A stretch of 64,000 nt of DNA from Oryzias latipes (Eukaryota; Chordata; Actinopteri; Beloniformes; Adrianichthyidae). The DNA is taken from contig NC_019866.2 in NCBI RefSeq assembly GCF_002234675.1, positions 709,083 to 773,082 of the forward strand. Reading direction: 5' to 3'. A program made the translations under genes and the position numbers. The first letter of the stretch is position 1. Every line of letters starts with the position of its first letter. Below the pieces are notes generated by a model. The model saw nothing but the letters and a program-made list of their open reading frames with translations, was not told the DNA's origin and did not search any database. Below, in pieces: positions 2,237 through 59,800 of this stretch.

Positions 2237-4156
2237 TCAGTCCACCTCCTCAATAGTGGGCCCCTGGCTGTCGGCCCGCGCCTGCTCTCTGCAGGAGCCG
2301 CTGGGCATCCCTCCCTGATACAGCTTGCTGATGATGGGGTTGCAGACCTTCTCCAGCTCTTTCTGCTTGTGCTGGAACTCGTCTTTGTCGGCCAGCTGGT
2401 TGTTCTCCAGCCAGGCGATGGTCTCGTCGCACTTCTCCACCACCCTCTTCCTGTCTTCCTGGCTGATTTTGTCCTTCAAGCTGTCGTCCTGCGCGCTGCT
2501 CTTCAGGTTGAAGGCCAAGGACTCCAGGGAGTTCTTGGCGGCGATCTTGTCCCTCTGCTGCTCGTCCTCGGCTTTGTACTTCTCCGCCTCCTGCACCATC
2601 CTCTCGATGTCCTCTTTGCTGAGGCGGCCCTTGTCGTTGGTGATGGTGATCTTGTTCTCCTTGCCGGTGCTTTTGTCCACCGCCGACACGTTCAAGATGC
2701 CGTTGGCGTCGATGTCGAAGGTGACCTCGATCTGCGGGACCCCTCTGGGAGCCGGCGGGATTCCCGTCAGATCAAACTTGCCCAGCAGGTTGTTGTCCTT
2801 GGTCATGGCTCTCTCGCCTTCGTAGACCTGGATCAGGACCCCGGGCTGGTTGTCGGCGTAGGTGCTGAACACCTGGGTCTGCTTGGTGGGGATGGTGGTG
2901 TTGCGTTTGATCAGGGCCGTCATGACTCCACCGGCCGTCTCGATGCCCAGGGACAGAGGCGCCACGTCCAGCAGCAGCAGGTCCTGGACGTTGCCCGAGG
3001 TGTCGCCCGACAGGATGGCGGCCTGCACGGCGGCGCCGTAAGCCACCGCCTCGTCCGGGTTGATGCTCTTGTTCAGCTCTCGGCCGTTGAAGAAGTCCTG
3101 CAGGAGCTTCTGGATTTTGGGGATCCGGGTGGAGCCTCCCACCAGGACCACGTCGTGGATCTGCCCCTTGTCCATCTTGGCGTCCCTCAGGGCTTTCTCC
3201 ACCGGTTCCAGCGTTCCCCTGAACAGGTCGGAGCACAGCTCCTCAAAGCGAGCTCTGGTGACGGAGGTGTAGAAGTCGATGCCCTCAAACAGAGAGTCGA
3301 TCTCGATGCTGGCCTGGGAGCTGGAGGACAGGGTCCTCTTGGCCCTCTCGCAAGCGGTGCGCAGCCTCCTCAAGGCCCTCTTGTTCTGGCTGATGTCCTT
3401 CTTGTGTTTCCTCTTGAACTCCTCCACAAAGTGGTTGACCATGCGGTTGTCAAAGTCCTCTCCGCCCAGGTGAGTGTCTCCGGCCGTGGCCTTCACCTCA
3501 AAGATGCCGTCTTCGATGGTCAGGATGGACACGTCGAAGGTGCCTCCTCCCAGGTCAAAGATCAGCACGTTTCTCTCTCCCGACTTGCCCTTGTCCAGTC
3601 CGTAGGCGATGGCGGCCGCCGTGGGCTCGTTGATGATCCTCTGGATGTTGAGTCCCGCGATGACGCCCGCGTCTTTGGTGGCCTGTCGTTGGGAGTCGTT
3701 GAAGTACGCCGGCACTGTGATGACGGCGTTGGACACCTTGTGGCCCAGGTAGGCCTCGGCGATCTCCTTCATCTTCACCAGGACCATGGAGGAAATCTCC
3801 TCGGGGAAGAAGGTCTTGTTCTCTCCTTTGTAGTCCACCTGGATTTTGGGCTTCCCTCCTTCTGAAACCACCTTGAAGGGCCAGTGCTTCATGTCGGCCT
3901 GCACCACCGGCTCGTCGAACCTCCGCCCAATCAGCCTCTTGGCGTCAAACACGGTGTTGCTGGGGTTCAGAGCCACCTGGTTCTTGGCCGCGTCTCCAAT
4001 CAGCCTCTCCGTGTCGGTGAAGGCCACATAGCTGGGGGTGGTCCTGTTGCCCTGGTCGTTGGCGATGATTTCCACTTTTCCGTGCTGGAAGACGCCCACA
4101 CAAGAGTAGGTGGTGCCCAGGTCGATGCCGATGGACACGCTCTTGGCCGCAGACAT
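2237..4156 (-). CDS. hsp70: Inducible heat shock protein 70 kDa, copy 1
   Basis: This is a cytosolic ATP-driven chaperone of the HspA1 type. The 639-residue frame is uninterrupted and has the usual length. The ATPase domain (about 1-385) opens with [14 protein letters not shown] and contains the HSP70 signatures [13 protein letters not shown] and [13 protein letters not shown]. The substrate-binding domain follows, and the protein ends in GPTIEEVD, the cytosolic EEVD tail that binds TPR co-chaperones. The coding region is intronless. A 5'UTR intron runs from 4658 down to 4177 (donor GTAAGT, acceptor TTTACAG), and the ATG lies just downstream in exon 2. A poly(A) signal is at 2005-2010 (TTTATT on the plus strand). 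The protein differs from copy 2 at one residue, Ile171 here and Val171 there. The heat-shock element upstream indicates HSF1 control. Confidence 0.97.
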
Positions 4157-4776
4157 GTTTGCTGGATGACTTTGTGCTGTAAAGACGCGCAGACACAGAC
4201 GGGAGGAAACGTTACAAACATGAACTTCTGCAGCCGCTCTGACAGAGTCTCGAAAGAACCCAGTCCAGCATCAGAGCTCGGATTCCTCTAGAAGGAGGAT
4301 TCAGGCGGTTCTGGCTCACGCTCATCTGCTCTGGTCTCTACTCGGTAAAGTTAGCACATCAAGGCTTCAGGTTTCTACTTCAACCAACCAAACATCTCCA
4401 AAGCTTCTGTCGTTCAGACTAAAGCAATAAAGTTTGATTGGCATGAAAAAAAGGTTTCTAATCCAATCTAATGAAAATAAATTAATTGATTTAAAAAAAG
4501 TAAAAGGTTTCTAATCCAGTTTAATAAAAGTAAATAATTAAATTAAAACAAAGTAAAAGGTTTCTAATCAAATCTGCCTTTTCCTCCCGATAGTCTGGAT
4601 CAAAGCTTTTCCTCCACTTTCCTGCCTTTTCTCTAGAAAGAATGAAGGAAATACTTACAGCTGAGTGATGATGGAGTGATCTGTGAAGAGGAAGGATCTT
4701 CTTCTCTTTCTTCTCCTCTGGATCTTCTCTGCGCTCTGCTCTCTTTCTCTAACTGTCTCTGCTCTCGGATCAGCCG

Positions 4777-4827
4777 CTTTATATCTGCGGAAGCTCACAG
4801 CCTGGCTGCTTCTAGACGCTTCACGAA
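4777..4827 (-). promoter_or_regulatory. hsp70 copy 1 promoter: HSE plus TATA
   Basis: On the minus strand a TATA box (ATATAAAG, 4784-4777) lies 26 bp below a four-unit heat-shock element at 4827-4810. The element reads TTCnnGAAnnGTCnnGAA, one mismatch in four alternating GAA/TTC triplets. Transcription should start near 4750. A short non-coding exon would run from there to 4659 before the 5'UTR intron. Confidence 0.85.
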
Positions 4828-5269
4828 CAAAACCGTCGAGTCTGCGGAACGCTCCACAGCCGTTTCCGGTTTGACCCTTCACAATAAGACGTTTCCTGTT
4901 GGACGCGCGTTTCCGTCAGTGAGGCTCAACATTCAGGCGTCTTATTGTGAAACTGGATCGGGACCACGTGACGCAGCTTCATGAGAACTTTCTGGAGTCA
5001 ACGAGAGGAGAAGAGAAGCTTATCGTTCACTTTCATTCCAACTAAAGTTCTGCCGGAACAACCGAAAAGACTCAAACATAAATACAGAAACAAGAATGAC
5101 ATTAAAAAAAAGATTCTCTAAACAATTTATTGAAACTAAAACTGTAAAAAAAAAAAATCAGCAAACCAAAATCTAATAAACTGGAAATCAGATTCAGCTT
5201 ATTAAAGTTACTTTAAAAACTTAATCATCTGTGTTCATAGTTTTTAAATAGCCCAAAGCTGATGGATCT

Positions 5270-5721
5270 GCATTTTTATCCAAATATACTAGAAACACTT
5301 GAGGAGTAAAAATAAACGTTCTAGCACTTTACAGCTAAATTAAAGTGCTTTCTAAAAACTGACACAGTCGGACAAACATTTAGAATCAACTTTACATTAA
5401 ATATGGATAAAACTGATGTGGAAAAAGTAGGAATTAATATTGAGAAATTTCTATAGCAACACACCTGCAGAGAACACGACAGTTCTAGCTTTAACCTACA
5501 TTTTTATGGAGTGTCATTTGGTCCAAATGTTAATAATTATATAGAAAATTGTTAGTTTAAGAAACGTAAGAAAAGCTAAAGAATATACACATTTATGTTT
5601 AAATAATATTAATTTAAAGGAGACACATTGGAATCATTTTTACAAGTCTTATTAGTGGAGGTATGTTTTACAATATTTGTTTTATCGAGAAAAAAAAACA
5701 AATACATAATCACTAAATATG
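5270..5721. other. Spacer at centre of the hsp70 palindrome
   Basis: This unique AT-rich stretch separates the two inverted arms and so lies between the two divergent promoters. No open frame or known motif was recognised. Confidence 0.5.
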
Positions 5722-6162
5722 AAGATACATCATCTTTGGGCTATTTAAAAACTATGAACACAGATGATTAAGTTTTTAAAGTAACATTAATAAGCTGAAT
5801 CTGATTTCCAGTTTATTAGATTTTGGTTTGCTGATTTTTTTTTACAGTTTTAGTTTCAATAAATTGTTTAGAGAATCTTTTTTTTTAATGTCATTCTTGT
5901 TTCTGTATTTATGTTTGAGTCTTTTCGGTTGTTCCGGCAGAACTTTAGTTGGAATGAAAGTGAACGAGAAGCTTCTCTTCTCCTCTCGTTGACTCCAGAA
6001 AGTTCTCATGAAGCTGCGTCACGTGGTCCCGATCCAGTTTCACAATAAGACGCCTGAATGTTGAGCCTCACTGACGGAAACGCGCGTCCAACCGGAAACG
6101 TCTTATTGTGAAGGGTCAAACCGGAAACGGCTGTGGAGCGTTCCGCAGACTCGACGGTTTTG

Positions 6163-6213
6163 TTCGTGAAGCGTCTAGAAGCAGCCAGGCTGTGAGCTTC
6201 CGCAGATATAAAG
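6163..6213 (+). promoter_or_regulatory. hsp70 copy 2 promoter: HSE plus TATA
   Basis: The heat-shock element TTCnnGAAnnGTCnnGAA lies at 6163-6180 and the TATA box ATATAAAG at 6206-6213. A further two-unit palindromic element (GAAGCTTC) lies at 5968-5975 and an imperfect one at 5998-6005. Exon 1 is non-coding and ends at 6331 before a GTAAGT donor. Confidence 0.85.
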
Positions 6214-6331
6214 CGGCTGATCCGAGAGCAGAGACAGTTAGAGAAAGAGAGCAGAGCGCAGAGAAGATCCAGAGGAGAAGAAAGAGAAGAAGATCCTTCC
6301 TCTTCACAGATCACTCCATCATCACTCAGCT

Positions 6332-6919
6332 GTAAGTATTTCCTTCATTCTTTCTAGAGAAAAGGCAGGAAAGTGGAGGAAAAGCTTTGATCCAGACTAT
6401 CGGGAGGAAAAGGCAGATTTGATTAGAAACCTTTTACTTTGTTTTAATTTAATTATTTACTTTTATTAAACTGGATTAGAAACCTTTTACTTTTTTTTAA
6501 ATCAATTAATTTATTTTCATTAGATTGGATTAGAAACCTTTTACTTGTTTTAATTCATTTATTTTACTTTTTTTAAATTGGATTAGAAACCTTTTTCTAT
6601 TTTAAATTTATTTATTTACTTTTATTAGATTGGATTAGAAACCTTTTTTTCATGCCAATCAAACTTTATTGCTTTAGTCTGAACGACAGAAGCTTTGGAG
6701 ATGTTTGGTTGGTTGAAGTAGAAACCTGAAGCCTTGATGTGCTAACTTTACCGAGTAGAGACCAGAGCAGATGAGCGTGAGCCAGAACCGCCTGAATCCT
6801 CCTTCTAGAGCAATCCGAGCTCTGATGCTGGACTGGGTTCTTTCTAGACTCTGTCAGAGCGGCTGCAGAAGTTCATGTTTGTAACGTTTCCTCCCGTCTG
6901 TGTCTGCGCGTCTTTACAG
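6332..6919 (+). other. 5'UTR intron of hsp70 copy 2 with tandem repeats
   Basis: The donor is GTAAGT at 6332 and the acceptor is TCTTTACAG ending at 6919, giving 588 bp. Between about 6420 and 6650 the motif GATTAGAAACCTTTT recurs five times with a period of about 53 bp. In copy 1 the equivalent intron (4658-4177, 482 bp) has three, and the 106-bp length difference equals two units. Confidence 0.85.
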
Positions 6920-6939
6920 CACAAAGTCATCCAGCAAAC

Positions 6940-8859
6940 ATGTCTGCGGCCAAGAGCGTGTCCATCGGCATCGACCTGGGCACCACCTACTCTTGTGTGG
7001 GCGTCTTCCAGCACGGAAAAGTGGAAATCATCGCCAACGACCAGGGCAACAGGACCACCCCCAGCTATGTGGCCTTCACCGACACGGAGAGGCTGATTGG
7101 AGACGCGGCCAAGAACCAGGTGGCTCTGAACCCCAGCAACACCGTGTTTGACGCCAAGAGGCTGATTGGGCGGAGGTTCGACGAGCCGGTGGTGCAGGCC
7201 GACATGAAGCACTGGCCCTTCAAGGTGGTTTCAGAAGGAGGGAAGCCCAAAATCCAGGTGGACTACAAAGGAGAGAACAAGACCTTCTTCCCCGAGGAGA
7301 TTTCCTCCATGGTCCTGGTGAAGATGAAGGAGATCGCCGAGGCCTACCTGGGCCACAAGGTGTCCAACGCCGTCATCACAGTGCCGGCGTACTTCAACGA
7401 CTCCCAACGACAGGCCACCAAAGACGCGGGCGTCATCGCGGGACTCAACGTCCAGAGGATCATCAACGAGCCCACGGCGGCCGCCATCGCCTACGGACTG
7501 GACAAGGGCAAGTCGGGAGAGAGAAACGTGCTGATCTTTGACTTGGGAGGAGGCACCTTCGACGTGTCCATCCTGACCATCGAAGACGGCATCTTTGAGG
7601 TGAAGGCCACGGCCGGAGACACTCACCTGGGCGGAGAGGACTTTGACAACCGCATGGTCAACCACTTTGTGGAGGAGTTCAAGAGGAAACACAAGAAGGA
7701 CATCAGCCAGAACAAGAGGGCCTTGAGGAGGCTGCGCACCGCTTGCGAGAGGGCCAAGAGGACCCTGTCCTCCAGCTCCCAGGCCAGCATCGAGATCGAC
7801 TCTCTGTTTGAGGGCATCGACTTCTACACCTCCGTCACCAGAGCTCGCTTTGAGGAGCTGTGCTCCGACCTGTTCAGGGGAACGCTGGAACCGGTGGAGA
7901 AAGCCCTGAGGGACGCCAAGATGGACAAGGGGCAGATCCACGACGTGGTCCTGGTGGGAGGCTCCACCCGGATCCCCAAAATCCAGAAGCTCCTGCAGGA
8001 CTTCTTCAACGGCCGAGAGCTGAACAAGAGCATCAACCCGGACGAGGCGGTGGCTTACGGCGCCGCCGTGCAGGCCGCCATCCTGTCGGGCGACACCTCG
8101 GGCAACGTCCAGGACCTGCTGCTGCTGGACGTGGCGCCTCTGTCCCTGGGCATCGAGACGGCCGGTGGAGTCATGACGGCCCTGATCAAACGCAACACCA
8201 CCATCCCCACCAAGCAGACCCAGGTGTTCAGCACCTACGCCGACAACCAGCCCGGGGTCCTGATCCAGGTCTACGAAGGCGAGAGAGCCATGACCAAGGA
8301 CAACAACCTGCTGGGCAAGTTTGATCTGACGGGAATCCCGCCGGCTCCCAGAGGGGTCCCGCAGATCGAGGTCACCTTCGACATCGACGCCAACGGCATC
8401 TTGAACGTGTCGGCGGTGGACAAAAGCACCGGCAAGGAGAACAAGATCACCATCACCAACGACAAGGGCCGCCTCAGCAAAGAGGACATCGAGAGGATGG
8501 TGCAGGAGGCGGAGAAGTACAAAGCCGAGGACGAGCAGCAGAGGGACAAGATCGCCGCCAAGAACTCCCTGGAGTCCTTGGCCTTCAACCTGAAGAGCAG
8601 CGCGCAGGACGACAGCTTGAAGGACAAAATCAGCCAGGAAGACAGGAAGAGGGTGGTGGAGAAGTGCGACGAGACCATCGCCTGGCTGGAGAACAACCAG
8701 CTGGCCGACAAAGACGAGTTCCAGCACAAGCAGAAAGAGCTGGAGAAGGTCTGCAACCCCATCATCAGCAAGCTGTATCAGGGAGGGATGCCCAGCGGCT
8801 CCTGCAGAGAGCAGGCGCGGGCCGACAGCCAGGGGCCCACTATTGAGGAGGTGGACTGA
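6940..8859 (+). CDS. hsp70: Inducible heat shock protein 70 kDa, copy 2
   Basis: This is the mirror copy of the gene at 2237-4156, with 639 residues and a single amino-acid difference (Val171). It is the same cytosolic HspA1-type chaperone: GIDLGTTYS phosphate-binding start, [13 protein letters not shown] and [11 protein letters not shown] signatures, and a C-terminal EEVD. The coding region is intronless and the ATG follows the acceptor of the 5'UTR intron by about 20 bases. A poly(A) signal AATAAA lies at 9079-9084. Near identity, including many silent sites, means either recent duplication or ongoing gene conversion between the inverted arms. Its HSE and TATA match those of copy 1. Confidence 0.97.
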
Positions 8860-12445: not shown

Positions 12446-12699
12446 CATGGATGCTATGGATATGTTTATTTAAAAATGGACCAATAAATTACATAAAATT
12501 ATGTGTCAGAAATGTCCATGATTGCTGTAAATTTAGGCTGAAGAAAACATTCCCATAGAGATCACATTAAAAGTTACTTAGTTTTACCTAACACTTATAG
12601 TAATTAAATATGATTTTAAATTACTTTATAAATGTAGATAAAACGTATTGGAAATGAAATGTATTTTTTACTGTAAACTTGAAAATGTGTGGTCACACA

Positions 12700-12900
12700 T
12701 TAACCCCTGTTCTATCCTAGGCACTTTACCATTGGGAGTGGGGTCATCTAGACCCACTAGACAGAGCTCTGAACCTTTTTTCTTCAATGATTTGTGATCT
12801 TCACTGGTGTCCATGGATTACATGAAATCTTTCCACCTTTATCCACCTTTGTCATGGTAGGGAGAACACGCCAATGGAAGGGGGGGGGGGGGTGATCTAA
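12700..12900. mobile_element. TTAA-ended MITE, copy 1
   Basis: It begins TTAACCCCTGTTCTATCCTA. It shares a long block (GGGTCATCTAGACCCACTA, then the AACCTTTTTTCTTCAATGAT region, then GGTAGGGAGAACACG and a poly-G run) with 31361-31522. The partner copy ends in GGGTTAA, so the family has TTAACCC tips, as piggyBac-type MITEs do. The far end of this copy is degraded. Confidence 0.6.
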
Positions 12901-13069
12901 GATAGTGTCCCTGATACCCAAAATAATGTAGTAACTTCAAAATAGTTTTGCTCTCCTTCCATTCACGTCTGTCACGTTTAAACTGCGCAGGAGCAGAAAG
13001 TTCCAGTCCAGTCCTGCTCTGCTCAGTGCTCACGTGCAGAAAGGCACGAGCTCTGAACGTTAGAATTGG

Positions 13070-13397
13070 GAATTTTCCATTGGTTTCTAGAACGTTCTGT
13101 TGTTGGGTAGAAAATCGACAGTAAACTCCATTTATGGTAAACAAGGTTGTGATTGGTCTGTTTATTCGCCAGGGAAAAGGGGGTCGTGTCATGTTGTTTG
13201 GGTTAATATCCATTTCCGTGATTCAATTTTTCAAAATAAAACAAATTGTCCAAATTTCTGGATTCTTGCAACAACAAAAAACGAGAATAGCCTTTATTTT
13301 GAAATACGTCACCGGACACGCTTTTAACATTTTTCCGACTCGACAGCCGAATTGTTGCGAAGTTTCTCGAAGCGTCGGTCTTCTCTCTATAAAAAAG
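13070..13397 (+). promoter_or_regulatory. Orphan heat-shock promoter: two HSE arrays and TATA
   Basis: The distal array starts at 13070. Triplets spaced exactly 5 bp apart read GAA, TTC, (mismatch), TTC, GAA, TTC at 13070, 13075, 13080, 13085, 13090 and 13095. The proximal array reads GAA, TTC, GAA, GTC at 13359, 13364, 13369 and 13374, so three of four are perfect. A strong TATA box, TATAAAAAAG, follows at 13388-13397. Array, short gap and TATA form the layout of a classic heat-shock promoter. The flanking sequence is not a copy of the hsp70 promoters. No heat-shock protein gene is recognisable downstream. Confidence 0.75.
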
Positions 13398-13417
13398 CAA
13401 GGCGCAGACCGTCAGTC

Positions 13418-13512
13418 GTATCGGGATGACGCGGACCAGGCTGTCGGTTGGAGGATCGGTCGGGGCGGACCAGACCGGACCGGACCGGACCGGACCGGAC
13501 CGGGCGGCGATC
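13418..13512 (+). other. Putative first exon of the orphan heat-shock transcript
   Basis: The start is inferred from the TATA box about 30 bp upstream. The exon ends at a good donor, GATC|GTGAGTAC, at 13513. A candidate acceptor (TTTGTTCGTTTCAG) ends at 13604, giving a 92-bp intron. The exon contains a run of five CGGAC/GGACC units (about 13470-13502). Open frames are short: the first ATG gives about 39 codons if unspliced. It may be a 5'UTR or a non-coding RNA. Confidence 0.4.
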
Positions 13513-13604
13513 GTGAGTACAGAAATAGGATCGAGTGTTTAGGCAGGCTGTGGTTGTTTGGGTTTAATGCAGTTCATGCTGAAAACTACTTTTGTTCGTT
13601 TCAG

Positions 13605-14469
13605 AAATGTTGCCGTCCGTGACGCAAAGATGTTTCCATAGGTTGAAGTAAATTGTCAGACGGGATCAGCTGACGGTCGGTTTAAAGCCGGTCTGCTAAC
13701 AGTTTCCGTTTGAAAGTAACCGGACGGTCAGCAGGAAGGTTTGGATCATAAACGAGGACAAACATGGCGGGATTTCCTCCAGTTATTTCTGTTTCAGTGG
13801 CGAAGAGAAACAACAAAAACCAGAAGATTCTTGGGATAAATGTTTGCTTTTGATCGTAATCCTAGCAGTTATTGTGTAACTAAAGGAAATCTATTTAAAT
13901 TAATTCAAATAATTAAAAATGGTGTCAGCAATGAAATAAAAAACTTTAAATATTTTAGTGAAGAAACCTCAGTAATGATGTCATGAAACAACAAATGCAG
14001 ATATTTTTATGCTCATTATGACTGTTGAAGATTAAAACGGCTGCTTTAGTTAGTAAAAAAAATAAAGATAAAAATTCCAAAGGTCAAACCTGCTGCAGGT
14101 GAAGAGGGTGTGGTCAGTGTGTGCAGGAGTGGGGGCTCTGGGGAAATGGGCGGGGCCAAAGAAAGAATGTTCTGGATTGTTCTACCTGGACCAATGAATA
14201 TACCGTATAGAAGGAAAATACTCCGGACCACAGATCATGAGGTGAATGATGACATAACTATGTGGTGTCAAACCTGGTTTTAGTCATATTTGATGAAACT
14301 ACTTGAAATCTAAATCTGGTGAGATGTTGATTAAAAGATTATTTCTGATAAAGTTTTTAACTGTTAAAAGGGAAAAAAAGGGACATTTCCGTAAATGATA
14401 AATTCATAGAGTTTACCAACATTTCTGTTCAAGTATTTCCTTATATGTGGTTTGATAAATATGTGGGTT
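13605..14469. other. Intergenic or unassigned transcript body
   Basis: No frame over about 60 codons is convincing. If the heat-shock exon is real, its second exon should begin at 13605, but I cannot place its end. Confidence 0.3.
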
Positions 14470-15696
14470 AATAAACAACTTTAACACAGGAAAGTGGGCG
14501 TGGTTAAATCTGCAGTCTGGTTTAAAAAACAGGAGTCAGTTCAGGGAGACCTGGAATGTTCTGGAAACATCCTGGAAGTTTCCTGAAGGTTAAACTGGTG
14601 ATTAATTATAAAACTAATGAAGGTTTTTGATGCAAAATCTATATTTTCATATTATTGACAGAGCTTCAAAACAGCAGATTTAATGTCATGTTGTTGTCAA
14701 CAAATCAGATCAAATATTAGTGTTTATTTTTATGGATGTGGCTCATCAGAAGAGAAAAACTGTGAAGTTGATTTGGTTTAATATTCTGTCCAAATCTTTA
14801 ATGCCATATTTGTGGTAATAATGTGATGAAGGTGATCAACATCAAACTGTTTACATTTGGTCTTTTTTAAGGTGAAGCTCTTAGCTGCTAATGATGTAAC
14901 ATGGTGGTGGCTAGAATATTTATTGATGTGTTTATATATTAACACGTATGTTTACTAAAGTGTTCATGTCCCTACAAATAAATCATTACAAACTTTTACT
15001 AAACTAAAGTGTTGTAAATCTGGTTAAATAATCGTCATGGAGATGAGCAGCATCCAGATTAGATTAAAAATTATGACTTCTACAGATTATGGTTCCTGCT
15101 GCTCTGTAGGGACGGGGTTTCTACTGGGTTTTGGGTTGTTCCATGCAGGAAAATATTAAAGTACTATTTTAATCAAAAGGTACCATAGATCACAAGCTGA
15201 ACTATTGACTATAATAAAAATCTGGTCTCAGAAATGGAGAGATACTGCCTGAAGGAGAAAGTTCTGCAATTGTGTCACAAACTTGTATTACTGAGTATTT
15301 GAATAATCAGGTTATGTTAAACATTTTGAGTTTTAAAGTTTATGAAAACAACTTTTAACACAGCAAAGTGGGCGTGGTTACATCCAGAATGGTTCAAAAA
15401 CAGGTGGCGGAGTCGATTCAGGCAGAGTTTGAATGTTCTAGATTGATCCAGAGAAGTGGCTGTGATGCAGAGAAATACCAAACAGGAAGTTCATTTGGTC
15501 TAAACTGGTAATGAATTATAAAACTAACCAATTTTAATACAAACATGGATTTTGAATAAACAGAAATAAATAGCAATTTTATCAACAGAATAGTAGAAGA
15601 GCAGATTAAATGTCAAGTTTATATCAAACTATAACACGACCCATCAGATTAACTACTCAAAGTGATGCTCTGATGATACATTTATAAATAATATAG
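14470..15696 (+). repeat. Diverged tandem copies of a 0.9 kb sequence
   Basis: The segment around 14480-14700 (AAGTGGGCGTGGTTA, then an ATTATAAAACTAA block, then CAGATTTAATGTCA) recurs in diverged form at 15360-15640. The part 14688-15103 also recurs almost unchanged at 18509-18930, with about four single-base differences noted by eye. The unit ends in ATTATGACTTCTACAGATTATGG, the seed of the minisatellite that expanded next to the other copy. Confidence 0.7.
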
Positions 15697-16481
15697 CAGT
15701 GACGTGCAGTCAGGAGAGGCAGGTGAGGCTGTGCCTTACCTGTCATTATGGGAAGAAAAGAGAAACAATAAATTCAATTATTATATTTAATCAGTAATTT
15801 GTGCTTTGCAGTCATTTTCCATTTAAATGTACCATTTTTGGGTGTTTTTTCTTTTCAAAATCGCTGAATTTCCGCATTTGCCGTTCAGATACTAAGAAGT
15901 GACGTGCGATGAGGCACCAGCCCGCTGAGCCTCACCTTGGATTGCGCAATACCTATGCAGTCAGACGGTCCTGCTGTCTCTCTGTATGTCGGTTCAATCA
16001 CTTGTACTATATGAGCTGAGTTTACATAATTTAGCAGATGTATATGATGTACAGTGTTTGTTTTTATAAATAACTGTATGTGAGGGACGTGTTTCTTGTG
16101 CTGAGCGCTAAACGCCGGCGAAAAAGCCGCTGGGTGAGGCCAGCAGTTCTCGTGCCTCATGTTAGGGGGCGCCGGTGAGCCCTGAGATTATGACGCTAAA
16201 AAACAATAGAAGAAGTGATAGCAAGCGGAAAGTCATTTTCTTCAGAAGGAGCGGCATATGGACTTTATTTACAAGTAAAGGTAAGACGATAATAACGTTT
16301 GTGCTTTTTTCTATGCCGCAGTTTGTATATGAAAAAACATGTTGAAATGATATTTTAAACAAAACACGTTAACTGTTGTCAATTAAATGGTGAATAAGTT
16401 ACTCAGTATGGTTCATATGTTTGTAAGTCTGACTGATGACGTCAGTGCCTCACCAGCCATTAACCTCACCGCACGTCACTG
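15697..16481. mobile_element. hAT-type MITE with 8-bp target duplication
   Basis: Terminal inverted repeats read CAGTGACGTGC at both ends. The flanks carry a perfect 8-bp direct repeat TAATATAG (15689-15696 and 16482-16489). Eight-base duplications and CAG-type tips are hallmarks of hAT elements. At 785 bp with no transposase frame it is non-autonomous. Internal segments repeat the tip motif (GTGACGTGCGATGAGGC near 15900), so the element may be composite. Confidence 0.85.
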
Positions 16482-16499
16482 TAATATAGAATAAACTTA

Positions 16500-18508
16500 T
16501 ATGAGTAGACTAATGACATGTGACAACTGATCATTTCCCAGTTTTACACTATTTGACATCAATGTGAAGACAAAGAAAATAAAAGAACCAGTTTATAAAA
16601 TGTTAAGAAATGAAAAAACTATGACTTCTCAAAATAATGACTTATTCATCAGAAAGCTCAAAGCTAGAACATCACTGAAGCAGCAAACGGCCTCAAGAAC
16701 TATTCTGTAAACGGGGTCCAGAGATGGCAGCAGAAATTCCAGAATGTAAAACCAGCAAAGACAATAATCCACCATGGAAAGGATCCCAAACTCAATCCTT
16801 CTCTGATGGGAAAAACATGTGCTGATATCAATGTGAATACATTCCAGAGTAAAAACTCTAAATATGGTGAGGATATAGATATGACAGTGATGAAAAAGGT
16901 CATTAATAGTCTCTCTAAGCCTCTAACTTATCATTACTAACTGGGAGATTCCCAAACCAAATGAAAATAGTAAAAGTGATTCCTATCTGTAAGAGTGGAG
17001 ACAAACACCAATTTACAAACTATAGACCTGTTTATCTCCTCCCACAATTCTCAACAATATTCAATGATAATTTAGCTACATTTATTGATAAACATAACAT
17101 TATAAATGAAAACCAATCTGGTTTTAGAGAAAACAGATCCACCTCATTGGCTATCATTGATGCTGTGGAGGAAATCACAAACGCTCTGGACAAAAAGAAA
17201 TATGCAGCTCATTAACTTAAAAAAAGCATCTGACTCTCAATCATGACATCCTACTTGACAAACTGGAAGTGTCTGGGATTAAAGGACTAGCGTTAATTTG
17301 GGTCAAAAGCTATTTAATAGGAAGAAAACAATTTGTCAAGATTGATGAATATCCATCAGAATCCATAGAGATAAGTTGTGGTGTCCCACAGGGATCAAGT
17401 CTAGGCCCGCTGCTATTCAATATTTATATAAATATTAAATGTTTCAAAATGTTTAAATCTCATAATTTGCTGATGACACAAATGTATTCTATTCTACAGA
17501 CAATCATAGGGAATTTATCAATGTGGTAAACAGAGTTCACCAAAATAAAATCATGGATGGATTACAACAGATTATCTTGAACCTAGATAAAACCAAAGTG
17601 ATGTTTTCCAGTAACTACAAAGCAAATAAAGAGCTCTCAATTATAATTAATAATGTCTCAATTGAAAATGTCACAGAAGTCAAATTCTTAGGGGTTGTTA
17701 TCGATGACAAACCAAGTATGTCAATCATCAATAAATCTAAACATATATTAGAATACAACAGTAGATATTTATTTTACTGCTCCTTAATATTACCATATTT
17801 CACCTACTGTATAGAAATTTGGGGGAATAATTCTAAGAGTTCACTACATCCTCTCTGTTTACCTAAAATCCAGCCGTCAGAATTGTACATAAAGCCGGAT
17901 ATCTTGATCATACAAACTATTCATTTTCAAAGTTTCTGTGTCGGTGTGTGGCACTAAAGTTTGGAACGGGTGAAGTAATGAGCTCAATCAATGTTTAAAT
18001 ACCCAAATATTCAAGAAAATGTAGACAGAAACTCTGATTTCATGATGTAAAGATAAGAGTTAAGGATCAACAGGTGTTTGAATAATTCCAAATCCATGTG
18101 TGAACTTGAATGTGGTGAAATAATCAAAGCTCTTTTAATTACAATCAATAAGTATTACATTGTGTAATGTGCAATAATGATAACTGAAATGTTTGAATTA
18201 CAATCAATAACTATTGATTTTCTTTAATTGATCTGCAATGTGTAGCAATAATTACTGGTTTAATGTGATCAGGTGTTCTAATAATCAATGATTATTACAT
18301 AACTGTTACCGTTACTGTTTACTGAAATGTGAAAGAATGTTTTCTGAAGATAATCAATCTTTAATAACAACTGGATTTAGTAACTTGAAAAGAATCTATT
18401 GGATCAGAACCAGATGACAAAAACTATGTAAAACTATCAAATGAATGAACTCAGGAGGGGTGGGGTTATATAAACTCGCTTCTTCCTGCTCCTTTCCAAG
18501 CAATAAAT
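16500..18508 (+). mobile_element. LINE, decayed reverse-transcriptase region (Rex/L2-like)
   Basis: Broken frames at 16860-17957 encode reverse-transcriptase blocks in order: FTNYRPVYLLPQFS, GFRENRSTSLAIIDAV, SYLIGRKQFVKI, GVPQGSSLGPLLFNIYIN, a degraded active-site block, then NNVSIENVTEVKFLGVVIDD and YCSLILPYFTYCIEIWGNNS. The last two are the C-terminal signature of common fish non-LTR elements. Stops and frame changes show it is dead. No endonuclease domain is present, so it is 5'-truncated. A TATATAAACTCGCTTCTTCC stretch near 18470 may be its 3' tail. Confidence 0.8.
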
Positions 18509-18930
18509 GTTGTTGTCAACAAATCAGATCAGATATTAGTGTTTATTTTTATGGATGTGGTTCATCAGAAGAGAAAAACTGTGAAGTTGATTTGGTTTAA
18601 TATTCTGTCCAAATCTTTAATGCCATATTTGTGGTAATAATGTGATGAAGGTGATCAACATCAAACTGTTTACATTTGGTCTTTTTTAAGGTGAAGCTCT
18701 TAGCTGCTAATGATGTAACATGGTGGTGGCTAGAATATTTATTGATGTGTTTATATATTAACACGTATGTTTACTAAAGTGTTCATGTCCCTACAAATAA
18801 ATCATTACAAACTTTTACTAAACTGAAGTGTTGTAAATCTGGTTAAATAACCGTCATGGAGATGAGCAGCATCCAGATTAGATTAAAAATTATGACTTCT
18901 ACAGATTTATGGCTCCTACAAATTATGACT
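18509..18930 (+). repeat. Second copy of the 0.4 kb duplicated segment
   Basis: It is almost identical to 14688-15103, beginning TGTTGTTGTCAAC and ending in the ATTATGACTTCTACAGAT motif. Here the last motif runs straight into the 16-bp minisatellite. At the other copy the same motif occurs once and is not amplified. Confidence 0.85.
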
Positions 18931-20778
18931 TCTACAGATTATGGTTCCTACAGATTATGGTTCCTACAAATTATGACTTCTACAGATTATGGTTCCTACA
19001 AATTTATGGCTCCTAGAGATTATGGTTCCTACAGATTATGGTTCCTACAAATTATGACTTCTACAGATTATGGTTCCTACAGATTTATGGCTCCTACAAA
19101 TTTATGGCTCCTATATATTATGGTTCCTACATATTATGGTTCCTACAAATTATGACTTCCACAGATTATGGTTCCAACAAAATATGGTTTCTACAGGTTA
19201 TGGTTCCTACAAATTATGGCTCCTACAGATTATGGTTCCTACAGATTATGGTTCCTACAGATTATGGTTCCTACAAAATATGGCTTCTACAGATTATGGT
19301 TCCTTCAAATTATGGCTCCTACAGATTACGGTTCCTACAAATTATGATTTATACAGATTATGGTTCCTACAGATTATGGTTCCTACAGATTATGGTTCCT
19401 ACAGATAATTGTTCCTACAGATAATGGTTTCTACAGATTATGGTTCCTATAGATGTATGGCTTGTACAGATTATGGTTCTTACAGATTATGGTTCCTACA
19501 AATCATGGCTCCTACAGATTACATGTCCTACAGATTATGGTTCCTACAAATTAGGTTTCCTACAGATAATGGTTCCTACAGATAATGGTTCCTACAAATT
19601 ATGGTTCCTACAGATTATGGTTCCTACAAATTATGGTTCCTACAGATTATGGTTCCTACAAATGTTGGTTCCTACAGATAATGGTTCCTACAAATTATGG
19701 TTCCTACAGATAATGGTTCCTACAGATAATGGTTCCTACAGATAATGGTTCCTACAGATTATGGTTCCTACAAAATATGGCTTCTACAGATTATGGTTCC
19801 TTCAAATTATGGCTCCTACAGATTACGGTTCCTACAAATTATGATTTATACAGATTATGGTTCCTACAAATTATGGTTCCTACAGATAATGGTTTCTACA
19901 GGTTATGGTTCCTACAAATTTATCGCTCCTAGAGATTATGGTTCTTACATACTATTGTTCCGACAAATTATGACTTCTACAGATTATGGTTCCTACAGAT
20001 TATGGTTTCTACAGATTATGACTCCTACAGATTACGGTTCCTACAAATTATGGTTCCTACAAATTATTGCTCCTACAGATAATGGTTTCTACAGATTATG
20101 GTTCTTACAAATTATGGTTCCTACAGTTTATGGATCCTACAGATAATGGTTTCTACAGATTATGGTTCCTATAAATTTATGGCTTGTACAGATTATGGTT
20201 CTTACAGATTATGGTTCCTACAAATAATGGCTCCTACAGATTATGGTTCCTACAAATTATGATTTATACAGATTATGGTTTTTACAGATTATGGTTCCTA
20301 CAGATTATGGTTCCTACAGATAATGGATTCTTCATTTTATGGTTCCTATAAATTTATGGTTCCTACAAATTTATGGCTTCTACAGATTATGGTTCTTACA
20401 GATTATGGTTCCTGCAGATTATGGTTCCTACAGATAATGGATTCTTCATTTTATGGTTCCTATAAATTTATGGTTCCTACAAATTTATGGCTTCTACAGA
20501 TTATGGTTCCTACAAATTATGGTTCCTACAGATTATGGTTCCTCCAAATTATGACTTCTACAGATTATTGTTCCTACAAATTTATGGCTTCTACAGATTA
20601 TGGTTCTTACAGATTGTGGTTCTTACAAATTATGGTTCCTGCAGATAATGGTTCCTACAAAGTATGGTTCCTACAGATTATGGTTCCTACAAATTATGGC
20701 TCCTACAGATAATGGTTCCTACAGATTATGGTTCCTACAAATTATGACTCCTACAGATTATGGTTCCTACAGATTATT
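18889..20778 (+). repeat. 16-bp minisatellite, about 118 units
   Basis: The consensus is TACAGATTATGGTTCC. Variants have AAATT, AGATAA or AGATTTA in the middle and GGCTCC or GACTTC at the end. Because 16 is not a multiple of 3 and the unit lacks stops, all three frames stay open and give repeats like MVPTDYGSYRLWFLQI. These are not proteins. Blocks of several units recur as larger repeats (for example 19230-19360 against 19740-19870), showing segmental expansion. Confidence 0.95.
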
Positions 20779-31609: not shown

Positions 31610-34600
31610 TCAGCCTGCTTGATTGGTCGCTGCCTCGTCTGTGTGTGGGCGTGGCCTCATCTGCCGCAGGGCCCCCCTGCAGATCAGAGAGAACCAATAG
31701 AGCTGCAGGGGCCACAGCAGAGCCGCCCCCAGGTTGCACTGCCAGGGGGCCACCAGGGGGACCTGGTGGAGCGGGATGGAGGCGTACCTGCAGACAGAGA
31801 GGAGAAGACCCGATCTTCAGAACCTCAGAGGTTCTGGACCGTCTGTGGAGTCGTCCCAAACATGGATGTAAAGTGAGCAGCTCCAGGGCCGGTCCCAGAG
31901 GTTTAAATGTTTAAATATTACAATATCTACCTCATAGTACTTTCTTTTTATTATTTATCCTCTCCTGTCTTACTCCTTTAAACTTTTTTATAGCTTTCTA
32001 GTTTGGATGAAAAGACACCAACCAGTTTTTACCAACAGTAAAAACTGACGTTTGCGTTCAGAAAACAAATGATGTTTATATTAATATCCAGAAGTGAAAA
32101 ACATGAAATGTATAAAAAAATATTAAAAAGATCTAGAATGTAAAATAATAATCATTATTATTACTGAGTAAACTAAAGAACCATCAGCCTGACTTCACTC
32201 AGGATTACGTAATATCTGGTGCAGCAGAACCCACAGCCTGATTCTCATCCAGAACCGGCCCAAATGATGTCCATCCACCTAAAGCAACATTTACCCGCAA
32301 AGTCAGAAAAAAGCCGCCCTAATGAGCGGGAAACCCCCCCCCCTTCTGCTCGCTAACCTGCTGTTGACTGGAATGTACCATTGCTGCAGAAGGACGGGGG
32401 GACCAAAGACTCTACATGATCATTCTATTATGCTAGTTCACTATTTCTTTGTTTTTTATGAGTTATGGGTGTAAAATTCATTATGGAAACTTTTATGAAG
32501 CGTTTAGCTTGGGGCCCCTAGAGTGTTGGGGCCCCGAGTCTGAGGGTAACTCCGCCCCTGGCTGGTTCTAACCTTCATGAGGCCAGAGGCCCCCGGGCCC
32601 CCCCATATAGCATCTGTTCTGCAGTCAGACCCTGATCTGCTGAGACCCAAACCCGGTTCTCCTCCTTCAGCTCAGTGGACCCGCAGGCGGACAGGCGGCT
32701 CACCTGCTGTAGGCGTAGTACAGGTACGGGAAGAGCAGCACGCGGCAGCAGAAGAAGGACAGCAGCATGAAGACGCCGTTGGCCCTGTGCAGCAGCGTCC
32801 GCTGCTTCCTGTACTGAAGACACAAACACCTTCAGCTGCTGCTGAGGAAGAGGAGGAGCACCTGAACACATCGGCCAATCAGATCAAAGCTCCAGGAAAC
32901 CTTCAGCTTCACCAGAAAGACTGAAGCTTCTGGTTCTGATCCGATCACCTGATGCAGATTCTTCTCCAGAACAAAAGCCCGTCAGCTTCTCAGCTTAACA
33001 TTTTAGCCTGGACTCAGACGTGCACGCTCATCAGCCGGTCACGTGCACGCACATTAGCAAGTCACGTGCACATTCATCAGCCGGTCACGTGCACGCACAT
33101 TAGCAGGTCACGTGCACGCTCATCAGACAGTCACGTGCACGCTCATCAGACAGTCACGTGCACACTCATCAGCCGGTCACGTGCACGCTCATCAGACAGT
33201 CACGGGCACGCTCATCAGAAAGTCACGTGTACACTCATCAGTCACGTGCACACTAATCAGCCGGTCACGTGCACGCACATTAGCAGGTCACGTGCACGCT
33301 CATCAGACAGTCACGTGCACACTCATCAGCCGGTCACGTGCACGCTCATCAGACAGTCACAGGCACGCTCATCAGACAGTCACATGCACGCTCAACAGAC
33401 GGTCACGTGTACACTCATCAGACAGTCACGTGCACACTAATCAGCCGGTCACGTGCACGCACATTAGCAGGTCACGTGCACGCTCATCAGGCAGTCACGT
33501 GCACACTCATCAGCCGGTCACGTGCACGCTCATCAGACAGTCACGTGCACGCTCATCAGACAGTCACGTACACACTCATCAGGCGGTCACGTGCACGCAC
33601 ATTAGCAGGTCACGTGCACATTCATCAGCCGGTCACGGGCACGCTCATCAGACAGTCACGTGCACGCTCATCAGACAGTCACGTGCACACTCATCAGACA
33701 GTCACGTTCACACTCATCAGCCGGTCACGTGCACGCTCATCAGACAGTCACGTGCACTCTCATCAGACGGTCACGTGCAAACTCATCAGACGGTCACGTG
33801 CACGCACATTAGCAGGTCACGTGCTCGCTCATCAGCAGGTCACGTGCACGCTCATCAGACAGTCACGTGCACACTCATCAGGCGGTCACGTGCACGCACA
33901 TTAGCAGGTCACGTGCACATTCATCAGCCGGTCACGGGCACGCTCATCAGACAGTCACGTGCACGCTCATCAGACAGTCACGTTCACACTCATCAGCCGG
34001 TCACGTGCACGCTCATCAGACGGTCACGTGCACGCACATTAGCAGGTCACGTGCACGCTCATCAGACAGTCACGTGCACACTCATCAGGCGGTCACGTGC
34101 ACGCACATTAGCAGGTCACGTGCACATTCATCAGCCGGTCACGGGCACGCTCATCAGACAGTCACGTGCACGCTCATCAGACAGTCACGTGCACACTCAT
34201 CAGACAGTCACGTTCACACTCATCAGCCGGTCACGTGCACGCTCATCAGACAGTCACGTGCACTCTCATCAGACGGTCACGTGCACATTCATCAGCCGGT
34301 CAAGGGCACACTCAACAGACAGTCACGTGCACACTCATCAGACAGTCACGTGCACACTCAACAGACAGTCACGTGCACACTCATCAGCCGGTCACGTGCA
34401 CGCACATTAGCAGGTCACGTGCTCGCTCATGAGCAGGTCACGTGCACGCTCATCAGACAGTCACGTGCACACTCATCAGGCAGTCACGTGCACGCACATT
34501 AGCAGGTCACGTGCACATTCATCAGCCGGTCACGGGCACGCTCATCAGATAGTCACGTGCACACTCATCAGGCAGTCACGTGCACGCACATTAGCAGGTC

Positions 34601-56885: not shown

Positions 56886-59800
56886 CCTGGAAATCTGCGA
56901 GAAAAGGGTTCAAAGGTGAGTCTGAGTGGGTCAGCTCCGGAACGAAACCCAAGAAGAACGTTCGGAGGTAAAGTTCGGGATGGAGTGAACCGGAAACGCG
57001 AACCGGAAACACCGGTTCTTTTCAAAATAAAAGTAGTGAGGTTTGGATCCCAATCCTCAATCCTTGTCTTTGTCTGGCCAAAAATGAAACTAATGCACAT
57101 AGATTACAACTAACTTTGTGAGTATTGTTTCAGTTTCTTAAATTGATATTTCATAATTTAAAAATTAAAATTCTTTCTTAAAATTTCTAAGAAAGAGAAC
57201 GGAAGACAAAAAGACACAAATCTGTTTTTGTTTTTTATTTCTTCAAAAGTATTTTCTTATGTTTCTGTACATTTCAACTTTCAACAGCTTCCAACTAAAT
57301 GTCTGCAGCTCTGTGGAACAGACCAGCATCCATCCTCCTCACCCTCCTCATCCTCACAGCAGCCTCTGTCAGTTCTGTCCTGCCGGCCTCAAACATGAAC
57401 ACGATTTCCGTCAAAGCTGCACCAGGACACAGAAACCGGAAAGTGGGGAGTAGATTCACGATAATTAATAATCTCTTTTCCACGCATGTGTGACTAAACC
57501 AACAGAGTTCTTTCCTGTTATTGTTTGGATTTCCATCAAACGTTCCCGCATTTCCCTTTTTATGGCAAATAAGCTTTTGGGCCACTTTAACATTTCAAAC
57601 ATGAGTTTGGTTTTTAACTGCTGAACATGTTAAAGAACTGAAATGTTCGACTCCTCTGGAAGCTATAAAACACTGGAGAAAATAAACCAAAATCTGAAAT
57701 AGAAAAATATTTTAGTGAGTTCTACAAAACAACAAGTGTCTCTGGGAATCATTTTAGGAACTTTTATGAATGGAGTTCTTTGAAACAAATGAGCCGATAT
57801 GATCCAGATTTAAGGGTGAAAATCATGAAGCTGTAGCAGAAAGTGCTGGATGGCTTCATGAGAACCCGCCTCAGAGCAGAACCCGCTCCAGAGCAGAACC
57901 CATCCGTCTCCCGGTGCAGCTTCCACCAGCAGGAACCATAAAACGTTGGCAAAATGAAATCTCACAAAGAGGAACCAAAGTCTTCCTTCAAAGGCCAGCA
58001 GGTTCCAAGCAAACATTAGAAAAGGAACCCGAAAGAACGTGAACCGAATCTGTTCTTGAAGCATCCCCAAGTCCCAAACTTTTGCCCCCCGGTGTCCTCG
58101 TCCCGCCCACATTTGCACACGATTTGAAAAGAAAGAAAGAAACCACGAAAAAGCTTCATTTCTAAAGTTGACCAAACATTCGTTCACCATCAGTGCAAAT
58201 GAGGTAGACAGACAGCTGCAGACGCGCAAACATACTACTGCGGATGCGCAGACTACTGCAGATGCGCAGACAGACTACTGCAGATGCGCAGACAGATGAG
58301 TGTGGATGCGCAGAAAGACAGCTGCAGATGCCCAAACTGACTACTGCGGATGGACAGAAAGATATTCAGCTGTGGATGTGCAGACAAACTGCTGTATATC
58401 CACTGTCAGATAACTGCAGATGCGCAGACAGCCTTCTACATATCCGCAGACAGACTGCTGCAGACGTGCAGATGGCTTCCAGTCAGACAGCAAAGCAAAC
58501 CGCAGGAACATTAAGTTTTTTAATCAGACAAACTCAGGAAAGGAGGCAACAATAATCAGATGAATAAACTGCATTAAAAATTACGGCTTAAATATGTTTC
58601 AGTAAAAATGTGATATTTTTTCTGGTTTCTCTTTAAAAATGGAGGAATTTTGGAACATTTTGTAAAACTAATGTATTAAAAAATCCTTTTTACAGCCAAA
58701 CTTTACTTTCAAATGACGGCTAAATATTTTAAATTAAAGTTTTAAAGTGACTTCAGTCGAATAGGTTTGCTTTCACAATTGAAATGTTTCTAATGAAATA
58801 AATTGCACTTCATTCTTTTGATGTAAACTTTAAATCATCTGAGAGTAAAACAGTTTTAAAATGTGATCAAATAAACTTAATCAAAGTTGAGCTTAAACTC
58901 TAATTATCCTCAGACTCAAAAGTTAGAATCACACAAGAGTTTTCCTTTTCCTCACTTCATGTTTTTAAAACTTGTTTTTTTCTCAGACTAACAGACAAGT
59001 TATGGAGAATTTTCTAGAACTTCTTTAATAACAGTATAAACCTTAAACACAGTTTGTTCATGTGATTATTTCTGGCTTTTGTTCTGCTGTAACCCTAAAG
59101 ACTCCAAAGAACCGACGTCTGAACTCCTAAAGTAACACAAAAAAACAAAACATGGCACAAATGTCATGACGGAAAAGTGAAAACGTGTCCGACGCTTAGC
59201 TCCGCCTCCAATGCTCAGCGCTTTAATACTGGCTCCAGAGAAAAAAAGATGTTGCAACGCAGCCCTGCCCAGAAAAGAGGTCCCCCACCCCCCCGAAACC
59301 ACGCTGGGAATGCTGGGAAAGGTAGTCCTCTAAAGAAACATTATTTTAAAAACAGACGATCACAGTAACATTGCGATTCTTCCCCACCTAGTGGTCAAAA
59401 TTGGCATCAACATCTTAAAAACGTAAAAATACAACATAAATATTCCAACTGCAGCAGTAGAAATAATGATGATGGCGTCTATTCGTCTGAACTCACGGAC
59501 AAAAGAATCATTTTACTCTAACACAGTCTGATAGTTAGTGCTTCTATGTACACTGGTAAGTACAATGCCAGTCAAAGTGTTGGACAGGGAACAATCTTCA
59601 TACCTGCTCCGCCCGCAGGTATCTTACATTTATATGCATTTATATAAATAGGTAGAGTGCAGGATTATTCATACAAGCGCTGCCTGTACACCGGCTCCGC
59701 CCACTGGACCCGACTCGTCTCTACAGACCGCTGGGCCGATGGAGCGGCGTGCCGCTGGGTTTCCCCTCGGTTGGAGGTTCAGCACAGGAGGGGAGGAGAA

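Follow-up and report, generated by a model that had tools for sequence, protein, structure and literature searches.

The region at 13.07-13.6 kb of the analysed window (the whole 64,000-nt stretch of Oryzias latipes DNA, C8:709083-773082) carries clustered heat-shock elements (HSEs) in a CpG island. Together with a TATA box, NF-Y and CRE-like motifs and a donor/acceptor pair, these features support a promoter-like anatomy. The preferred reading, to which we give about an even chance of being correct, is that an HSF1-type promoter here gives rise to a short spliced RNA that encodes no conserved protein. From motifs, composition and splice sites we infer that the locus would be heat-induced and its product a non-coding RNA.

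The initial annotation had placed five of six HSE units in exact 5-bp phase at the distal site, and the scan returned the same arrangement. The distal array GGAATTTTCCATTGGTTTCTAGAACGTTCT (13069-13098, + strand) has five of its six units perfect and in 5-bp phase and is the only six-unit array of the window with five perfect units. An inverted CCAAT of the NF-Y type lies inside it at 13077 on the minus strand. The proximal array (13348-13377, + strand) has four perfect units of six, three of them contiguous (13358-13372), with GTC as a near-match. The scan agrees with the earlier description of three perfect units and a near-match 11 bp above the TATA box TATAAAAAAG, the distance being counted from 13376 to the T at 13388. 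Three contiguous nGAAn units in 5-bp phase, the pattern taken here to mark an HSF1 target, are present near the predicted start both at 13084-13098 and at 13358-13372.

Because its motifs were the reason for selecting this stretch, shuffle counts overstate its rarity and the figures that follow are upper bounds. An array with five perfect units of six appeared in none of 2000 dinucleotide shuffles generated from 13000-13512 but in one of 60 shuffles of the whole window; of the same 2000, one contained two perfect three-unit HSEs and 17 reached the best four-unit score. The four perfect three-unit HSEs found within 13000-14600 were matched by none of 1000 dinucleotide shuffles of the stretch (mean of 0.056), and the seven of the whole window, against a shuffle mean of 0.93, were reached in none of 60. 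Two of the four elements in the cluster, at 14554 and 14575, belong to a single array and are offset by 21 bp, and the rest of the window holds three. Seven stretches from the neighbourhood of hsp70 genes on C8 and C7 (65.6 kb) yielded no perfect three-unit HSE, and 13 unrelated loci (40.1 kb) yielded one.

The combination of an HSE with a TATA box did not stand out in this way. In the 734 Mb genome (25 contigs), a perfect three-unit HSE followed after 8-24 bp by TATAAA occurred at 81 sites (42 + 39 on the two strands) versus 145 (70 + 75) in the reversed control; the architecture by itself is at chance level genome-wide, and it is the local clustering of HSEs that is exceptional. The proximal element and its TATA box are consequently not evidence by themselves; what supports a promoter here is the clustering together with the CpG island, rather than any single array. 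Two of the 81 sites come from this locus (TATA at 13388 and 14607); lying 1.2 kb apart on the same strand, they form the closest pair among the matches listed. A third site in the window, with a perfect HSE and TATAAA at promoter distance, was found at 59007-59040 on the + strand.

Perfect five-unit HSEs numbered 53 genome-wide versus 8 in the control, with 20 of the 53 located in a tandem array on C12 and nine in a dispersed element with one copy each on C8 and C10. The C12 array (439740-441588) contains long repetitive open frames on one strand. The two dispersed copies, L038 (C8:13339508) and L042 (C10:23880821), share about 815 bp at 91% identity, including perfect five-unit HSEs and a TATA box, and a nearly identical HSE-TATA string occurs again at C21:15731603; the shared sequence resembles a dispersed element that carries a heat-shock promoter. 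The 13000-13700 segment matched only itself in the 734 Mb genome, in a search that passes over simple repeats and very common words, and a dispersed repeat as the source of the promoter was ruled out on this basis.

The TATA box (13388-13397, + strand) is accompanied by an NF-Y (CCAAT) box, GACCAATCA, at 13150-13158 on the minus strand and by a CRE/ATF-like TACGTCA at 13305-13311 on the + strand. The predicted promoter occupies the centre of a CpG-rich island (13051-13950) with an observed/expected CpG ratio (o/e) of 1.31 overall, rising to 1.58 in 300-bp steps, compared with a window mean of 0.70 and with flanking values of 0.14 (12501-12950) and 0.24 (13951-14850). The peak is at the 99.8th percentile of the window's 300-bp steps, with peaks of similar height also present elsewhere in the window; those at the window's hsp70 promoters reach 1.20 and 1.24.

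The window contains two hsp70 genes, at 2.3-4.1 kb (- strand) and 6.9-8.8 kb (+ strand), both with uninterrupted coding frames. They form an inverted pair (2237-8859) encoding near-identical proteins, and over 1.1 kb the two promoter and 5' regions align in opposite orientation with about 89% identity. Introns are predicted in their 5'UTRs, with the donor at 6332 and the acceptor at 6919 for the + strand gene. Two further hsp70 genes lie on C8 at 793 and 803 kb. A search of C8 with PF00012 at E 0.001 (73 of 74 candidates scored) gave nothing beyond these four known genes; no HSP70 reading frame follows the candidate promoter, and an hsp70 pseudogene at the site was ruled out, with no PF00012 remnant on C8 besides the four genes. 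A second copy of the HSE cluster near the other two hsp70 genes was also rejected after a scan of C8:773083-812500, in which one array of comparable strength was found upstream of each gene and no cluster. A C7 flank near hsp70 (L030) has one six-unit array with a score of 20.

The claim that the promoter is at least as strong as those of the neighbouring hsp70 genes held in part. Its best six-unit array scored 20 of 24 versus 19 and 19, with five perfect units versus three and three; the best four units were equal (15 of 16 each), and in moderate three-unit sites it fell behind, with three versus five and four. L001, L003 and L005 were omitted from the promoter motif comparison, the promoter side being uncertain at these loci. 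Not one perfect three-unit HSE occurs in the hsp70 promoters of the window, which is why perfect matches do not measure function. The view that the sequence is not a copy of the hsp70 promoters was borne out, as no BLAST match to those of the window was obtained at E 1e-3 and none elsewhere in the genome.

The HSEs continue downstream. A further array at 14164-14183 (+ strand), with three of four units perfect, has a GC box upstream at 14148 and a CCAAT box downstream at 14189. Beyond it lies a diverged tandem duplicate on the + strand, with copy A at 14461-14709 (GGGCGTGG box at 14496, HSE at 14553-14588, TATAAA at 14607) and copy B at 15337-15627 (GGGCGTGG at 15370, a weaker HSE at 15430-15449, TATAAA at 15517). 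Both copies retain the GC-type box GGGCGTGG, the HSE core GAATGTTCT(G/A)GA and TATAAAAC (14607 and 15517), with identities of 94% over 31 nt in the GC-type block, 93% over 27 nt in the TATA block and 76% over 41 nt in the HSE block. The 14164 array was not upheld as a third copy of the module: the aligner sets it alongside, and a profile built from A and B misses it. The arrays at 14164 and 14553, like the CpG island and the acceptor at 13604, had not been mentioned in the initial annotation.

A genome search with 14100-15700 (40 of 59 candidates scored) detected an approximately 99% identical copy of 14688-15097 at 18507-18917; the other outside matches among these candidates were short ones in a 16-bp tandem array, together with those of a dispersed tail located at about 15616-15696. 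The 16-bp array comprises about 117 copies at 18899-20777 and starts at the end of the 18507-18917 copy, for which the comparison within the window gave 98.5% identity. The last bases of 14688-15097 hold one 16-bp unit, from which the array seems to have grown out of this locus.

The candidate transcript has two exons on the + strand. Exon 1 (13414-13512), whose start is placed from the TATA position with an uncertainty of about 6 nt, includes a CGGAC repeat; a 34-codon ORF begins in this exon. The GTGAGT donor noted initially at 13513 is present and ranks at the 97.2nd percentile of the window's GT sites, compared with the 97.0th for the predicted 5'UTR donor 6332 of the + strand hsp70 gene under the same matrix. 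The acceptor at 13604, TTCGTTTCAG, reaches the 99.5th percentile of AG sites (91.5 for the hsp70 acceptor) and is the strongest among the matches listed for 13.5-15.7 kb. The two sites delimit a putative intron of 92 nt (13513-13604), and candidate exon 2 would extend from 13605 to 14085, the 3' end being a guess. AATAAA signals occur at 13935 and 14061, with a GU-rich stretch behind the latter. This is not the only exon model that the sites allow, because donors at 14099, 14242 and 14319 score above 13513 and a second good acceptor is present at 13797. The ORFs of the model transcript have 48, 34 and 29 codons; the 34-codon one crosses the exon 1/2 junction and consists partly of the CGGAC repeat, and the other two lie within exon 2. 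Unusual folding of exon 1 was ruled out by shuffle comparison, as its RNA folded no better than the shuffles (z of 0.72; 151 of 200 folded as well).

Downstream protein-coding potential was assessed with Pfam at E 0.05 on 92 of 104 + strand open frames of at least 48 codons listed for 13.4-42.0 kb, which covered 13.4-40.6 kb; the list omits frames starting in two tandem arrays, and the 12 unscanned frames comprise one at 32940 and 11 beyond 40300. Eight families were returned. The RVT_1 matches come from two frames located at 16.9-17.5 kb, PMG and Pentapeptide_2 share a single frame that spans the 15-bp tandem repeat at 28.5 kb, and the frame 13700-13876 accounts for Olduvai (E 0.032, 14.8 bits versus a cut-off of 23); none of these resolved frames reached the Pfam cut-off. 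The other four families, DUF4383, PP2C_2, DUF6579 and ASLyase_C, had one member each, with E 0.024-0.05. Of the four open frames at 13401-14280, three had no Pfam match at E 0.05 and the fourth is the Olduvai one. The statement that nothing recognisable as protein lies downstream is accordingly valid for Pfam-detectable domains in open frames of at least 48 codons; coding exons that are shorter or carry no Pfam domain would escape this search. Rfam 15 gave no match at gathering score in the whole window, and a known structured RNA at the locus was ruled out on these grounds. The best score in 13.0-18.9 kb, that of SNORD87 at 14237-14320 (20.9 bits versus a gathering score of 50, E 2.1), is probably due to chance.

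In the preferred reading, heat would cause HSF1 trimers to bind at two places, the distal array and the proximal one some 40-70 bp above the start; NF-Y and a CRE-type factor would sit in between. RNA polymerase II, directed by the TATA box, would start near 13414-13420 on the + strand. The predicted product is an RNA with a minimum of two exons (13414-13512; 13605 to perhaps 14085) and a spliced length of about 0.58 kb, which would encode no conserved protein and at most short ORFs of 29-48 codons; any effect of this RNA is likewise conjectural. The HSE modules at 14.16, 14.55 and 15.43 kb may act as additional HSF1-binding enhancers or alternative promoters of the same locus.

The spread of these modules over 2.4 kb (13.07-15.45 kb), rather than around one start, could also suit an HSF1-bound enhancer of the hsp70 pair, whose nearest promoter is about 7 kb away, with the RNA as a by-product. 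Such a role agrees with the retention of the GC box, the HSE core and the TATA-containing block in the duplicated module, and HSF1-bound enhancers that make eRNAs are described for mouse and human cells in a review (PMC9032817). However, a directional promoter is the better fit for 13.3-13.6 kb, given the TATA box, the CpG island and the pair of splice sites there, and the other two hsp70 genes (C8:773083-812500) have a single comparable array upstream of each and no cluster, which makes an enhancer possible and yet unlikely. The promoter might instead precede the 5' non-coding exon or exons of an unrecognised protein gene, possibly one for a micropeptide. The window's hsp70 genes likewise appear to have a 5'UTR intron (6332/6919), the good donors at 14099, 14242 and 14319 could extend splicing, and short ORFs are available over the exon junction (34 codons) and in exon 2 (48 and 29 codons). 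This reading is considered rather improbable in view of the two AATAAA signals within 0.7 kb of the start, the partly repetitive (CGGAC) nature of the 34-codon ORF and the Pfam results, in which eight families at E 0.05 in 92 frames included no resolved frame at the cut-off.

It is just as doubtful that the cluster arose by chance or is an untranscribed relic, left by the promoter of an hsp gene since lost. The lack of genome-wide enrichment of the HSE-TATA combination and the weaker HSE of copy B speak for this, but the clustering exceeds every local shuffle, the PF00012 search of C8 found no hsp70 remnant outside the four genes, and a high CpG o/e confined to the promoter suggests continued germline hypomethylation.

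The locus shares with the inducible hsp70 (hspa1) promoters of vertebrates, including the window's two copies, the HSE arrays, the TATA box, the CpG-rich context and a short 5' exon with a predicted intron behind it. It differs from them in that no hsp70 or other recognised chaperone frame follows, and from the window's two promoters also in the absence of BLAST similarity, the better best array and the smaller number of moderate three-unit sites.

A further system considered for comparison was Drosophila hsr-omega, for which PMC9865238 gives a short ORF of 23-27 aa starting in exon 1, an intron of about 700 nt and a 280-bp repeat unit. Like hsr-omega as described there, the locus would combine a heat-shock promoter, two exons and a short ORF from exon 1 with a tandem array on the same strand (18899-20777). 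Unlike it, the unit has 16 bp and not 280 bp and the putative intron 92 nt and not about 700; no homology is claimed, and the array also lies about 5 kb past the predicted polyadenylation signals, with reverse-transcriptase-like frames in between. By analogy, a convergent vertebrate counterpart could be imagined, in which a short spliced RNA with a tiny ORF is made together with a nuclear RNA reading through into the 18.9-20.8 kb array, which could hold RNA-binding proteins under stress; because of the distance of the array from the polyadenylation signals, this idea is held to be very improbable.

HSF1-driven non-coding RNAs are already known, with SATIII, TERRA, SINE RNAs, eRNAs and NEAT1 named in PMC9032817, a review mainly on mammals, and relative to these the locus would add at most another example. 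It was named in no title or abstract opening found by literature search. As a predicted HSE-bearing non-coding target of HSF1 it resembles the reviewed RNAs; it differs in being a single genomic match and neither satellite, telomere nor SINE, in containing a TATA box, in adjoining hsp70 and in that its transcription is a prediction. As non-coding HSF1 targets, the abstract of that review lists satellites, telomeric repeats, SINEs, enhancers and NEAT1; if its transcription is confirmed, the present locus would stand beside them as a heat-shock RNA gene at a single locus within the hsp70 cluster of a vertebrate.
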